In this document: positions 25,439 through 57,666 of the stretch, one piece after another
How positions within the stretch are numbered: position 1 is the stretch's first letter
How the letters are laid out: every line of letters begins with the position of its first letter
Virus record (IMG/VR): IMGVR_UViG_3300021197_001995
Coordinates: 95,042 to 159,041 of that record
Direction: 5' to 3' (one strand)
Length of the DNA: 64,000 nt
DNA from: a virus
The notes under the pieces: generated by a model
The model's database searches: none
Seen by the model: only the letters and a program-made list of their open reading frames with translations
Told to the model about the DNA's origin: nothing
Made by a program: the position numbers and the translations under genes

Positions 25439-27007
25439 ATGACCACACAACTCAGCCACGGAACTGAACTCCGCAATAAAGTTCTTGAAGGCGTAAACAC
25501 TCTGGCGGATTATGTAGCAACAACGCTTGGACCAAAAGGTCAAAACGTACTCATTCACGAAAAGGGCCGAAGCCCGTTTGTGACTAAAGATGGAGTCACG
25601 GTCGCACAGAGTATAAACTTTGAAGACCCGCACGTTAATGCAGGAGCACAGGTTGTAAAGCAAGTTTCAGCCCAAACAAACGCGGAAGCTGGAGACGGTA
25701 CCACCACAAGTACCGTATTAGCCAGAGAAATACTTTCTCAAGCGAACAAACACATCGCTTCAGGGGTATCTCCCATAGAAATCAAAAGAGGCCTAGAACA
25801 GTGCATGCTCGAAGCGACAGAGATAGTGAAGGAAATCTCTACACCGATCTCGTCCGTAGAAGATGTAAAGCACATCGCAACCATCTCGGCAAATAACGAC
25901 GAAACTATTGGAACGCTTGTCGCCACCGCAGTAGATAAGGTAGGCAAGAACGGCTCCATCACAATCGAAGAAGCACGTAGTCATGAAACGAGTTTAGATC
26001 TTGTGGAAGGATTTAGATTCTCTGGCGGATATGCAGCCACCGCATTTGTTACGGATGAAAGAAGGGGTGTTTGCAGATATGAGAACCCAATGTTCTTTAT
26101 TACTGACTCAAAGGTAGAACAGATAAACCAAATACTGCCGGCATTAGAACTAGCAGCCCGAGAAGGGCAGCCGTTTGTTATAGTTGCAGATGAAATAGAA
26201 GGTCAAGCGCTTGCTGCACTAATTATGAATACCGTTCGAGGTTCTATGAAGGTTGTGGCAATCAAAGCGCCACACTATGGTGAGCAAAGAAGAGCGATCA
26301 TGAGTGACCTAGCGGTCTCAACCGGGGCAACATTCTTCCAACAAAAGATGGGGAACAAGTTGACTGAGGTTTCTTTGAGTGATTTTGGTAAAGCAACCAG
26401 TATAGAAATCACAAAGAACATGACGACGGTTGTTGACGGGGAGGGTTCACATGAAGAAATCGACCAGACAATTGAAAAGGTTAAGGAAGAAATCAAACAA
26501 ACTGATGACATCCATGAAGCAGGGCGACTCCAAGATCGTGTTACTCGCCTCTCTTCTGGTGTTGCTATTATCCGCGTGGGTGCATCATCTCAAGTAGAGA
26601 TGATAGAAAAGAAGCACCGGATTGAAGATGCGTTAGAAGCCGTCAGATCTGCTCAGAAAGAAGGAGTGGTCCCTGGAGGTGGAACCACCTTATTGCGTAT
26701 CGCATCCGCCGTAGCTCCAAACTTCGTAAATGAAGACCAAGCTACAGCGCTCTCAATTTTCCGCCGGGCCCTCGCGGCACCATTCAGAAAGATGGCAAGC
26801 AATGCAGGAATGTCGCCGGAAGTAGCGATGTTGACAGTTCAGGAATGTAAAGAATCCGAGGGTATTGATTTCTCCACTGGAGACAAGGTTGACCTCTTAC
26901 AGGCTGGGATTATCGACCCTGCAAAAGTAACCCGCTGCGCCCTTAAGAATGCAGTATCAGTTTCTTCCACTCTTTTATTAACTAATCATAGTATTGTACA
27001 AGGGTAG
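25439..27007 (+). CDS. groL: GroEL-type chaperonin
   Basis: 522 aa. Chaperonin signatures are plain: TLGPKGQNVLI, TKDGVTVA, AGDGTTTSTVLAREI, ISANND, SLDLVEGFRFSGGY, and GVVPGGGTTLLRIA. The C-terminus ends without the GGM-type tail, making it about 25 residues shorter than E. coli GroEL. Together with the GroES-like protein at 10407 the phage appears to carry a complete folding chamber, probably for its own capsid or a large protein. The preceding sigma70-like promoter would allow independent expression. Confidence 0.94.
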   Translation: MTTQLSHGTELRNKVLEGVNTLADYVATTLGPKGQNVLIHEKGRSPFVTKDGVTVAQSINFEDPHVNAGAQVVKQVSAQTNAEAGDGTTTSTVLAREILSQANKHIASGVSPIEIKRGLEQCMLEATEIVKEISTPISSVEDVKHIATISANNDETIGTLVATAVDKVGKNGSITIEEARSHETSLDLVEGFRFSGGYAATAFVTDERRGVCRYENPMFFITDSKVEQINQILPALELAAREGQPFVIVADEIEGQALAALIMNTVRGSMKVVAIKAPHYGEQRRAIMSDLAVSTGATFFQQKMGNKLTEVSLSDFGKATSIEITKNMTTVVDGEGSHEEIDQTIEKVKEEIKQTDDIHEAGRLQDRVTRLSSGVAIIRVGASSQVEMIEKKHRIEDALEAVRSAQKEGVVPGGGTTLLRIASAVAPNFVNEDQATALSIFRRALAAPFRKMASNAGMSPEVAMLTVQECKESEGIDFSTGDKVDLLQAGIIDPAKVTRCALKNAVSVSSTLLLTNHSIVQG

Positions 27008-50734: not shown

Positions 50735-50807
50735 GGGCTACTAGCTCAACTGGCAGAGCATCGGACTTTTAATCCGCAGGTTCAGGGTTCGAGTCCCTGG
50801 TGGCCCA
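50735..50807 (+). tRNA. tRNA-Lys (TTT)
   Basis: 73 nt. Acceptor arms GGGCTAC / GTGGCCC pair, D-loop CTAGCTCAACTGGCAGAG, anticodon loop CTTTTAA, T-loop GGTTCGAGTCC. CCA is not encoded. Reads AAA (and AAG). Confidence 0.93.
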
Positions 50808-50820
50808 CAAAATTATAACT

Positions 50821-50892
<72 letters not shown>

Positions 50893-50900
50893 TATTTTAT

Positions 50901-50977
<77 letters not shown>

Positions 50978-50987
50978 AGGAGATAGG

Positions 50988-51215
50988 TTGAAAGATTATC
51001 TTATCTGGTACAGAAAGCCGTATGACACACACGACAGGGTTTGCGGCACCGCTAGAAATTACGAAGCAGCAGAAAAATTAGCAGAGTCTATCTTTTTAGA
51101 TCTACGCTCAAGAAGAAAAGAAGTGTTGTCGGCTGGCGTCAAGCGATCTCTTGCCGGCACATTGTATTCTGATGATGATTTTGATCTACGTTGGGTCGTA
51201 AAAAAAGATAAATAG
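50988..51215 (+). CDS. Small protein between tRNA genes, 75 aa
   Basis: TTG 50988 with AAGGAG five bases upstream, just after tRNA-Pro. [20 protein letters not shown], then a helix ([20 protein letters not shown]) and a final strand DLRWVVKK. No family recognised. The start is chosen because the longer reading frame would run through two tRNA genes. Confidence 0.6.
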
Positions 51216-51218
51216 TTA

Positions 51219-51247
51219 TTGACAAATCGTTGAAAACTTGATATACT
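51219..51247 (+). promoter_or_regulatory. Sigma70-like promoter for tRNA-Arg
   Basis: TTGACA 51219-51224, 17-nt spacer, TATACT 51242-51247, 24 nt before tRNA-Arg. Confidence 0.82.
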
Positions 51248-51270
51248 GTAAGTATAGAAAATAAAGAATT

Positions 51271-51344
<74 letters not shown>

Positions 51345-51366
51345 CAAATATTAAATGGAGAAGTAG

Positions 51367-53695: not shown

Positions 53696-53747
53696 TTTGA
53701 CGATGCCAATCGCCGGTATTTTTTTTGCAAACAGACTAAAATAGTTC

Positions 53748-53776
53748 TTGACAAAAGCTAATAAACCGGGTATAAT
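53748..53776 (+). promoter_or_regulatory. Sigma70-like promoter (AAAATAGTTC cassette)
   Basis: TTGACA 53748-53753, 17-nt spacer, TATAAT 53771-53776. Upstream AAAATAGTTC is shared with 52917 and 54546. Confidence 0.87.
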
Positions 53777-53804: not shown

Positions 53805-54035
53805 ATGTTGAAGATAGTTTTGATTGTAGCGTTACTTGCTTCAATCGGTTGCGATGAAGAAAAAATGTCATGCACTTCCACAGTGGAATGCACAGATGAT
53901 AAAGAGATGGTGTGTGACTTGCCGGTAACACATGAATATCCTAATGGCGAAGTGATAGAAGTAAGAGCTTGCACGTATGTCACTTATGAGAATTGCCTTG
54001 AACAAACGATTTGTAAGCCAAAGGATAGCAAATGA
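53805..54035 (+). CDS. Small secreted or lipoprotein, 76 aa
   Basis: ATG 53805. Signal peptide LKIVLIVALLASIGC with a lipobox-like SIGC; seven more Cys follow, likely disulfide bonded. Overlaps the next gene by 4 nt. Confidence 0.6.
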   Translation: MLKIVLIVALLASIGCDEEKMSCTSTVECTDDKEMVCDLPVTHEYPNGEVIEVRACTYVTYENCLEQTICKPKDSK

Positions 54036-54310
54036 AAACAGTAGAAGAAATGATTAACGCGTATAAGAACATGCTTGATCATCCATCATCCATGTCGTTT
54101 TATCGAGAAGCGAAGTATCAATACATCGACATGGCTAAGGGCGGTGACGGTGGTGACCTAGGCTTCGAGCGCAACGGCGAAACTACTTGCCGTGGTATCA
54201 ACTATAAAGGATACCCCGATTCATTCTTTCGCGAAGTAAGCGAGCGAATGGGTTGGTTGCCACGTAAGGAAACCATCACGCTTGAGGCGTATTCAGCCGA
54301 CCCTATTTAG
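54032..54310 (+). CDS. Unrecognised small protein, 92 aa
   Basis: ATG 54032 in an ATGA overlap. Helical start (EEMINAYKNMLDHP), then a Gly-rich middle KGGDGGDLGFERNG and a mixed end. The structured RNA region begins just after the stop. Confidence 0.6.
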   Translation: MKTVEEMINAYKNMLDHPSSMSFYREAKYQYIDMAKGGDGGDLGFERNGETTCRGINYKGYPDSFFREVSERMGWLPRKETITLEAYSADPI

Positions 54311-54321
54311 GGTCGCACCGT

Positions 54322-54512
54322 GGGGAACATAGACCAGAGACGTAATGATTCAGGATTAGCATTGTTGTCAAGTGCCCCAAACGCGGCACATTGTTGTCAA
54401 GCTAACCGAAGTTCAACGTCGTGGTTGCGTAAGCGTGGGAACGATTCCCAGGTAGGCTATGTTTAGTTGTGGGAAGTTGGGAACCCACAGCATTTGTGTC
54501 GGTCGTGACACT
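54322..54512 (+). ncRNA. Candidate structured RNA with a symmetric repeated internal loop
   Basis: No gene fits here. Perfect stems: AACATAG/CTATGTT (54326-54332 with 54457-54463) closes the region. Inside it TTAGC/GCTAA (54356-54360 with 54401-54405) and GTGCC/GGCAC (54372-54376 with 54385-54389) are separated by two identical 11-nt sides ATTGTTGTCAA (54361-54371 and 54390-54400). Also TGGGAA/TTCCCA around CGA, TGTGGG/CCCACA and GTGTC/GACAC. The order, symmetry and number of stems go beyond chance. Cotranscribed with 53805 and 54032. Family not recognised. Confidence 0.6.
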
Positions 54513-54545
54513 AAAATAAAAAGACACTTGACCTTAAAATAGTTC

Positions 54546-54574
54546 TTGACTTTTGGTCGAAGTCTTGGTATAAT
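54546..54574 (+). promoter_or_regulatory. Sigma70-like promoter (AAAATAGTTC cassette)
   Basis: TTGACT 54546-54551, 17-nt spacer, TATAAT 54569-54574, preceded by AAAATAGTTC; drives 54643. Confidence 0.85.
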
Positions 54575-54642
54575 ACTTGTATAGAGAATGAGGGATTGGC
54601 TTTCTTTCTTTATAAAACAAACTACCTCGAAAGGGTAACATT

Positions 54643-54888
54643 ATGAAGCGCATCGTATCAAACATTCAAAACCTAGGTTTCACCATCATGAACGCGGAGA
54701 GCAACGATAAGAAGCAATCAGCCGGTGGCATCATCCTTGACCAGACACTCGTCAATGGTCACTCACAGGGCGTTAGCGTCCGACTTATCAACGGAGGCCG
54801 CAAGTCGGCAGCCGTGAAGCTCGACAAGCAGGCACTAACCAACCTGCTTGAGGCGGTAAATGAAGTGCTTTCAACAGAGCAGGCTTAA
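54643..54888 (+). CDS. Small protein, plus-strand copy of a duplicated family
   Basis: 81 aa. Has a close paralogue on the minus strand (56679-56915): both contain ILDQT(L/I) or TIDQTIL, RLINGGRKSAA, and a helical end like LLEAVNEVLST. I recognise no known family. A short hairpin CAAGGC/GCCTTG (54900-54923) follows and may be a weak terminator. Confidence 0.78.
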   Translation: MKRIVSNIQNLGFTIMNAESNDKKQSAGGIILDQTLVNGHSQGVSVRLINGGRKSAAVKLDKQALTNLLEAVNEVLSTEQA

Positions 54889-55648: not shown

Positions 55649-56041
55649 GTAGGCAAATGTGGGCAGGTGCAGCACATGTAGGCAGAGATGCGCATGTGTG
55701 GGTGTTGACCCCACAGGTAGGGAAATGTAGGTGTAAGACACACAATGTGTTGAATGTACGCATTTTATCCTACCTGTGGGGGAACGTAGGCCCAGGACCC
55801 ACATGTAAGGTAATGTAGGCAAGGTAGTTTTAAAACCTACAGGTAGGATATCGTTCTCACGGATACACTTGATGTGGGACGTTGCAACACTTTATCCTAC
55901 CTGTAGGCCCATGTAGGGAGATGTAGGCAAGGTAGGTAGGTGTAGGTTTTGTCTGGCCCTAGGGCGAGTTAAACTAACCCCTTGAAATCATTAGGTTTTT
56001 AAAATTGGGGTTTTGCTGATTTTGATGTAGGGTAATGTAGG
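55649..56041. repeat. 10-bp-phased GTAGG repeats, left block
   Basis: GTAGG pentamers start at 55649, 55678, 55717, 55727, 55786, 55815, 55843, 55903, 55913, 55923, 55932, 55936, 55942, 56027 and 56037, with GTAAG or GTGGG variants between. Runs such as 55903-55913-55923 are exactly 10 bp apart, one helical turn. CCTAC in inverted orientation occurs at 55769, 55836 and 55896, forming near-palindromes such as CCTACCTGTAGG. The unit TTATCCTACCTGT is repeated at 55765 and 55892. No gene reads through it. Confidence 0.85.
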
Positions 56042-56111
56042 TGTAATACATACAAAGATGCCCCATGGCGCCTGGCGACGCACATGGGGCTGGTGGGGAC
56101 TTTGAAGGGTT

Positions 56112-56165
56112 CTATTTTTTCTTGGTTTTCGCCCATGAGGAGGCGACTTTTGAACGTCTAGCCAT
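56112..56165 (-). CDS. Micro-gene encoding a 17-aa basic peptide (minus copy)
   Basis: MARRSKVASSWAKTKKK, starting on the minus strand at 56165 in an ATGGCTAG overlap with the gene before it. Counterpart of the plus-strand 19-aa gene at 55301. Confidence 0.68.
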   Translation of the reverse strand: MARRSKVASSWAKTKKK

Positions 56166-56328
56166 GGTTGAACCCCCAATCGTAGCGCGAGGCCTTCGTT
56201 TTGCGCTTGGGTTTATCAAGCCAGCCTTCAAACATACGCGAGTCGCCTAGGCCTCGGCCATTGGCGAGCTGGTAAGCGATACCCGGTAGGGACGGGTCAA
56301 CATATCGTCGGTTGATCAACTTATCCAT
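56158..56328 (-). CDS. Small basic protein, 56 aa
   Basis: Minus strand, ATG at 56328 overlapping the preceding gene by 8 nt (ATGGATAA). Basic (DKPKRKTKASRYDWGFNHG) with Gly-rich centre ANGRGLGDSRMFEGW. No family recognised. Last codons overlap the 17-aa gene. Confidence 0.6.
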   Translation of the reverse strand: MDKLINRRYVDPSLPGIAYQLANGRGLGDSRMFEGWLDKPKRKTKASRYDWGFNHG

Positions 56329-56518
56329 GTGCGCGCACCCCCTGGCGATGCAAGAAGGCGCATCCGTCGGCGTTGAACGCCTTCTTGAGCAGCTCGCGGC
56401 TTAAGCTTTCATTGCCCGTTAACCAAACGGCGTTGGCCTCGCGCAGCATGCGAGCTTTGGGCGATCCAGGCACGACCATGTAATTTGCGCCCTTATAAGC
56501 GACACTGATATATTCCAT
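56321..56518 (-). CDS. Small protein, 65 aa
   Basis: Minus strand, start ATG at 56518 chosen because AGAGGATTG lies before it. MEYISVAYKGANYMVVPGSP then a helical, basic region and a Cys near the end. Its stop overlaps the next start. Function unknown. Confidence 0.65.
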   Translation of the reverse strand: MEYISVAYKGANYMVVPGSPKARMLREANAVWLTGNESLSRELLKKAFNADGCAFLHRQGVRAHG

Positions 56519-56559
56519 CTTCAATCCTCTAAACAGGCCCAATCATAGGCCGGCAACAT

Positions 56560-56574
56560 GCATTCCGCGAATGC
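56560..56574. other. Short perfect hairpin
   Basis: GCATTC/GAATGC around CGC, between the two minus-strand transcription units. Purpose unknown. Confidence 0.35.
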
Positions 56575-56647
56575 TAATATAAAACTAACTAAAACAAATT
56601 CTAAAAACACCGGTTTTCCTTTTCAGTCGTTGGTGTGCTAAATGTGT

Positions 56648-56665
56648 GGGGCTCTTTCGAGCCCC
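56648..56665 (-). terminator. Hairpin after the minus-strand gene
   Basis: GGGGCTC/GAGCCCC with a 4-nt loop, just beyond the 56679 stop. No T run follows, so termination would be weak or rely on another factor. Confidence 0.45.
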
Positions 56666-56678
56666 GCAGGGCTATGAC

Positions 56679-56915
56679 CTAGAAGTCGCCTTCAGTAGCA
56701 AGAATCTCCTGAAGAGCTTCCGCCAAGTCAACAATCGCAGCGCGGTCCAACTTTGCAGCGGCGGACTTGCGACCCCCGTTGATAAGCCGGAAGGATACGA
56801 CCGCCGACTTACCATTCAAGATGGTTTGGTCGATAGTCATGCCAGCCTTTTCGTCCTCGTTGAGAACGGTCATGCCGAGATTGATAATGTTGCTTTTCTG
56901 CTTACGTAATGCCAT
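56679..56915 (-). CDS. Small protein, minus-strand copy of a duplicated family
   Basis: 78 aa from ATG at 56915 (AAAGG eight bases before). Paralogue of 54643: TIDQTILNGKSAVVSFRL, INGGRKSAAAKL, LAEALQEILAT. Transcribed from a promoter at 56995-57023. Its copy on the other strand and the shared 17/19-aa gene suggest a module was duplicated with inversion. Confidence 0.8.
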   Translation of the reverse strand: MALRKQKSNIINLGMTVLNEDEKAGMTIDQTILNGKSAVVSFRLINGGRKSAAAKLDRAAIVDLAEALQEILATEGDF

Positions 56916-56994
56916 GATAGACACCTTTCATTTTTGCGCTATTGCGCGGTTAATACCCGTAACGATGACCACCATCGTTTTCAGGTTATACCTT

Positions 56995-57023
56995 ATTATA
57001 CCAAATAAGGTTGGAGTTGTCAA
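56995..57023 (-). promoter_or_regulatory. Sigma70-like promoter, minus strand
   Basis: On the minus strand, TTGACA is at 57018-57023 and TATAAT at 56995-57000, spaced 17 nt; consensus. It starts the only leftward transcript in the window. Confidence 0.88.
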
Positions 57024-57221
57024 GAGAAAAGTGAAGTTTTTTTACTTTTTTTTCACTTTAATTTTTTCTCTCTCTCGCCTCCTTATAGTATAATTATACC
57101 ATTTTTTCGAGGAGAAAGCCAATTCCAGCCGTAAGCCCTTGAAATCATTGAGTAAATCCCTTCGCCCTTGAATTTCAAAACGTGACCGTAAGAACTTCAA
57201 TGATTCCGCATACTTAGAGCA
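57024..57221. other. T-tract region between promoter and right repeat block
   Basis: No gene. Two T-rich tracts sharing CTTTTTTTTCACTTT occur at about 57048 and again at about 57303. CCCTTGAAATCATT at 57137 also occurs at 55979, so the two gene-free blocks share more than the GTAGG units. Confidence 0.5.
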
Positions 57222-57666
57222 CCTACACCAGAGGAAAGGTAGGTAAAGGTAACCGTTACACCTACACATACCGACATGTATCCGGAATAAAATGATCTTT
57301 TTTTTCTTTTTTTTCACTTTTATTTAGCGTTAGAATGTTAACGGTGGTACACTTGGCTACGTTTACCTACATTCACCTACACTTACCTACACCATCCGAC
57401 ATGTAGGACAAGGTGCGAGAATGTAAGAAGAGTAAAAACAATAACCTAACAACGTAGGGAAAGGTAGGTAGATGTAGGATGTGGGATAGATACATACAGT
57501 GTAAGCAAAGGTAGGATAATAACATACAGTTAATTAATTAACTTGTAAACAAATGTAATCAAATGTAGGTGAAACACATACGTGTAGGTGGGGGTACCCC
57601 CTCCCCCCCGGTGTAGGCATAGGTAGCCGAATGTAAGTCCCATACCTACATGTAGGGTAATGTGGG
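57222..57666. repeat. 10-bp-phased GTAGG/CCTAC repeats, right block
   Basis: CCTAC at 57222, 57261, 57366, 57376 and 57386 (the last three exactly 10 bp apart), then GTAGG at 57239, 57403, 57454, 57464, 57474, 57511, 57565, 57584, 57613 and 57652, with GTAAG or GTAAT variants on the same 10-bp phase (57501, 57555, 57633). Several inversions of orientation create CCTACATGTAGG-type palindromes. No gene reads through it. It mirrors the left block across the minus-strand gene cluster. Confidence 0.85.

Follow-up and report, generated by a model that had tools for sequence, protein, structure and literature searches.

A structured RNA of about 170 nt is encoded in a 159-kb uncultivated marine phage, in which two copies of the same 13-nt sequence, CAUUGUUGUCAAG, face each other and pair; this two-fold symmetric module recurs in otherwise unrelated RNAs of other phages, including miniature tmRNA-like RNAs. 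The RNA lies at 54 320–54 491 (plus strand) of the window, the 64,000-nt stretch that we analysed (positions 95042-159041 of a 159,041-base virus record). We consider the module most likely to be a portable docking site for a partner that has not been identified, with a probability of roughly one half. A first-pass annotation, made from the sequence alone, had described an RNA element with two identical 11-nt sides of an internal loop, enclosed by a 7-bp stem and followed by three more hairpins, and had suggested a two-fold symmetric binding site or a kissing motif without a match to a known RNA family. The observation holds, and the element is larger than was described.

The features described there are all present: AACATAG (54326-54332) pairs with CTATGTT (54457-54463), ATTGTTGTCAA lies at 54361-54371 and 54390-54400, with TTAGC/GCTAA outside and GTGCC/GGCAC inside, and further hairpins are found at 54437-54449, 54466-54491 and about 54496-54511. 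Two corrections apply to the facing element: the repeat is really 13 nt (CATTGTTGTCAAG, 54360-54372 and 54389-54401), and the predicted internal loop is only UUGU/UUGU, because UUG of each copy pairs with CAA of the other with one bulged A per strand. The last hairpin (GTGTC..GACAC, 54496-54511) is not conserved. The folding energy alone is only modestly better than that of shuffled sequences (z = -2.24), and the weight of evidence comes from homologues.

The window carries genes of a large phage (DNA polymerase III alpha, RecA-like, DnaB-like, ribonucleotide reductase, GroEL and IMP dehydrogenase). The RNA is found just after a 92-aa ORF of no known family (54032-54310, plus strand) and before a sigma-70 promoter at 54546-54574, and a tRNA cluster (Lys, Gly, Pro, Arg; 50735-51345, plus strand; identified by ARAGORN and Rfam) lies about 3 kb upstream. 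The nearest upstream sigma-70 promoter (53748-53776, plus strand; TTGACA-17-TATAAT, matching 12 of 12 consensus positions) precedes two small ORFs and the RNA; near-identical promoter units (AAAATAGTTCTTGAC, then TATAAT) are repeated before small-ORF operons at 53736-53776 and 54534-54574. Downstream, two paralogous 81-aa proteins (55% identical over 74 aa) are encoded on opposite strands at 54643-54888 (plus) and 56679-56924 (minus), the first without a Pfam or PHROG match, and the region 55670-57660 has many diverged CCTAC/GTAGG repeats (CCTACATGTAGG-like palindromes) with few convincing genes.

Searches with the neighbouring ORFs (homologues of the 92-aa ORF, L008-L011, led to RNA homologues; L numbers denote the sequence records and loci that we collected) and with a conserved scaffold string gave nine related RNAs. 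All share the layout GUGGG-P1-ACCA(GA)-[arm]-(G)UGGUUGCGUAAGCGUGG-P4-AGG-P1'-P5. The 5' lead GUGGG (54320-54324) is invariant in all 10 RNAs. P1 is formed by GAACATAG (54325-54332) and CTATGTTT (54457-54464), and several of its pairs change on both sides (C-G/T-A, T-A/C-G, A-T/G-C). The P2 base pairs ACCA (54333-54336) with TGGT (54422-54425) and is invariant, while the arm between the two strands ranges from 15 to 101 nt. P3 (54427-54434, a GC-GUAA-GC hairpin) is invariant as well, and thus gives no covariation information. In P4 (54437-54449, GGGAACGATTCCC) a G-C pair is changed to A-T on both sides in three of 10 homologues. In the 3' hairpin P5 (54466-54491) most pairs change on both sides, the stem being fully variable yet paired in 10 of 10; its loop (AAGUUGGGAA; AWGWUGGGWR across homologues) is conserved although the stem varies freely, so the loop may be a second contact site. 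P5 is followed by a T-rich tail in most homologues, and is possibly also the terminator. The absence of covariation in homologues had been named in advance as grounds for rejecting the element, and covariation was found; for the other such ground, the lack of a transcript, there were no transcript data. In two relatives (L026 and L048) the RNA is directly preceded by its own consensus sigma-70 promoter (TTGAC(T/A)-18-TATAAT-like), and in L048 it lies upstream of the small ORFs rather than downstream, so it looks like an independent unit.

The arm (54339-54420; stems GACGT/ACGTC, TTC/GAA, GG/CC and TTAGC/GCTAA) is an exchangeable part of this RNA: five of the 10 RNAs (the window, L006/L009, L026/L010, L027/L008 and L048) carry the paired 13-mer, while L055, L056, L057, L058 and L059 keep the scaffold but have other arms at the same place. 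In the five, 94.5% of cells over the 26 pairs of the arm are paired and five pairs are changed on both sides, against at most 38% paired in slid controls. Within the module, copy 1 (54360-54372) faces copy 2 (54389-54401), closed by a cap hairpin (54372-54389; GUGCC-CCAAACGC-GGCAC). The pairing is C1-G13, A2 bulged, U3-A12, U4-A11, G5-C10, then U.U, U.G, G.U, U.U, and the same in reverse. Nearest-neighbour energies favour this extended duplex over a shifted register and over a four-way junction with two mini-hairpins, the latter being the least stable of the paired alternatives modelled. UUG and CAA never vary, so that their pairing rests on energy and symmetry only; their constancy rather suggests base-specific recognition or a tertiary fold, which is an inference.

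Exact-pattern scans of viral contigs found the same pair with flanking stems in two further groups of phages, with no DNA similarity in flanking sequence to this family (group A) or to each other. Group B consists of L024, L028 and L029, which carry tmRNA-like domains of only 82-90 nt with G3.U70 acceptor stems and a hairpin in place of the coding part, without a tag reading frame (L024:12758-12839, minus strand; L028:9486-9572, plus strand; L029:8158-8247, minus strand). They match the Rfam tmRNA family RF00023 at both ends (model 1-374), with E = 4.6e-23 (above gathering), and 1.4e-12 and 6.5e-12 (below gathering: 39.9 and 38.3 against 47 bits). In L028 and L029 the module replaces the mRNA-like part beyond P2, capped by GAAA; in L024 it sits in the neighbouring upstream RNA, where L028 has a different hairpin. 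In group C (L002, L003/L004, L005/L007, L062 and L220) the module caps hairpins, in most cases near phage tRNA genes; for example, L003:7600-8330, L005:7450-8230 and L220:180-860 are arrays of structured RNA cassettes (arms closed by GAUAC/GUAUC-like stems, some with T-arm-like hairpins) joined by repeated hairpin linkers resembling UUGUAGAGAUAAUUGUUGUUUCUUCAUG, beside phage tRNA genes.

Across 13 distinct instances in the three backgrounds, one base is changed in the 26 module positions (U to A at one position of copy 2 in L062), and the closing pairs C-G and G-C are invariant. By contrast, outer pairs 2-4 and inner pair 2 are of several types and stay paired in 51 of 52 cells (shuffle mean 40.5; none of 10,000 shuffles reached the observed value, but instances within a group are related, so this control overstates independence). 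The cap varies freely: GC-GCAA-GC, GU-GAAA-GC, GCGCU..AGCGC, and over 50 nt in L220. Freeing the central four or two bases (at least 119 stretches with the central four freed) or one copy (21 stretches) gave chance matches, apart from L062 as the one further instance with the flanking stems. These searches were anchored on exact letters in at least one copy and the scan that freed both centres was not exhaustive, so divergent modules may be missed and the apparent invariance may be partly inflated. In nine phage records of groups B and C the 13-mer occurs only as that one pair, even with one mismatch allowed, and the window's own genome has no other copy within one mismatch.

The module is absent from the bacterial genomes (except one phage-like contig), cultured phages and plasmids searched. 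The exact double motif gave 25 hits in about 85,000 species genomes, of which only L048 has the module, a phage-like contig with this phage's genes placed in a Dehalococcoidia bin; the rest are mostly tandem repeats without flanking stems, L050 (a repeat array) being the clear exception. The viral hits L022, L023 and L025 have no stems and were rejected. Cultured phages and plasmids gave no true match, and a BLAST search of the element against cultured phages found no homologue (the listed hits are 41-nt matches over the downstream promoter).

We compared the RNA with known families. No Rfam 15 family matches the element at gathering score, nor at E up to 5 for 54250-54620, and no tmRNA or tRNA match is found at the element, so the window RNA itself is not a tmRNA. 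The GOLLD and ROOL RNAs are likewise phage-encoded structured RNAs of unknown function near tRNA genes, with symmetry features in their assembly, but they are roughly 650 to over 800 nt long and differ in anatomy, and their models had no match in the window or in 11 related loci (multimerisation was not assayed). The tmRNA-like domains of group B are apparently further cases of the rare type in mycobacteriophage DS6A, whose tmRNA has only the tRNA-like domain (PMC4131195, PMC11915505); we did not find replacement of the mRNA-like part by such a module reported for DS6A. The module resembles recurrent RNA recognition modules such as the kink-turn and boxB in being a small sequence-constrained motif placed in unrelated RNAs between variable helices. 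However, it has exact two-fold symmetry with the same 13-mer on both strands and, by inspection of the pairing, no sheared G.A core as in a kink-turn (tandem sheared G.A pairs beside a 3-nt bulge): UUGUUGUCAA against its copy puts U.U and U.G, not G.A, in the loop. No open-access paper with this motif was found, in a search that left most subscription papers uncovered. Phage tRNA-island RNAs and recurrent RNA modules are known as broad categories, but this scaffold and this symmetric portable module match none of the families tested.

The interpretation as an RNA element of no known family is supported, and that as a two-fold symmetric binding site is well supported in form, although binding itself is not shown, whereas a loop-loop kissing form has no support. 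What the analysis demonstrates is the structure, the near-invariance of the module against covarying surroundings, and its reuse in unrelated phage RNAs, several at or beside tRNA- or tmRNA-like genes; that the RNA is independently transcribed is probable, and the partner and function are inferred. In our preferred reading, the module is read base by base by a two-fold symmetric partner, most likely a homodimeric protein, because the module serves as an appendage of otherwise different RNAs, like a tag; a symmetric small molecule comes second. The phage would attach it to small RNAs to deliver them to that partner or to occupy it. The absence of the module from bacterial genomes suggests a phage-specific role, such as a phage-encoded partner or blocking of a host defence or quality-control factor, rather than mimicry of an identical host RNA motif. 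No partner was identified: an all-against-all protein comparison of the groups found only general replication and recombination proteins, GroEL, and a few short low-scoring matches that were not followed up. The GroEL-like chaperonin is encoded by both group A and group B phages (window 25439-27007; L198, L200 and L202; 33-36% identical between groups).

Other explanations are less likely. The symmetric pocket could be an aptamer or sponge for a two-fold symmetric small molecule (for example a cyclic dinucleotide defence signal) or metal ions, which the stable phage RNA soaks up: two-fold symmetry, near-invariant nucleotides in a mismatch-rich helix and free flanks are what an aptamer would show, the module is found in stand-alone RNAs of phages only, and phage protein sponges for such signals are known (PMC12043709). 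But no RNA sponge of this kind surfaced in our literature search, no ligand or ligand-induced structural change was assayed, and a sponge needs a high copy number, for which there were no data. We regard this as unlikely, and more so an RNA–RNA assembly role, in which the self-complementary 13-mer would mediate homo- or hetero-oligomers of phage RNAs, as in the cage-forming GOLLD and ROOL RNAs (PMC12286853). In our collection the two copies are always placed so that they pair in cis with short caps, down to a tetraloop, and the contacts that we found described for GOLLD and ROOL are kissing loops, stacking and A-minor contacts.

A cleavage site for a double-strand RNase (an RNase III-like homodimer) that matures RNAs in the island would fit the symmetric helix and the position of the arm in arrays of hairpins joined by repeated linkers in the tRNA-island phages. 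This is also doubtful, as near-invariance of 13 nt is far stricter than RNase III needs, cutting the arm of a tmRNA-like domain (L028, L029) would break it, and no such motif is found in the host genomes searched. The least likely is a protein-binding or recombination site in DNA with an incidental RNA structure: direct repeats are present in every instance, but the spacing between copies ranges from a few to over 50 nt while the flanking arms stay complementary with two-sided changes, and the tandem-repeat hits in bacterial genomes mostly lack these stems.

A molecule similar to the DS6A tmRNA is reported to strongly inhibit host tmRNA (PMC4131195, PMC11915505), which suggests but does not show that the module-bearing RNAs act on translation or its quality control. 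A broader reading, more tentative than the one above, is that several unrelated phage lineages use this previously undescribed module to arm different small RNAs (a new scaffold RNA, tag-less tmRNA-like domains and tRNA-island arrays) for binding one shared partner, plausibly a host translation, quality-control or defence factor, which would make it a common RNA-based counter-host device. A strictly conserved symmetric RNA module that moves between unrelated phage RNAs is unusual, and its simple form (one 13-mer facing itself) makes it easy to test. Its place in tag-less tmRNA-like RNAs and tRNA islands ties it to translation or its surveillance, and its partner could reveal a new RNA-based counter-defence or a new aptamer class, and give a clue to why phages carry structured RNAs in tRNA islands.
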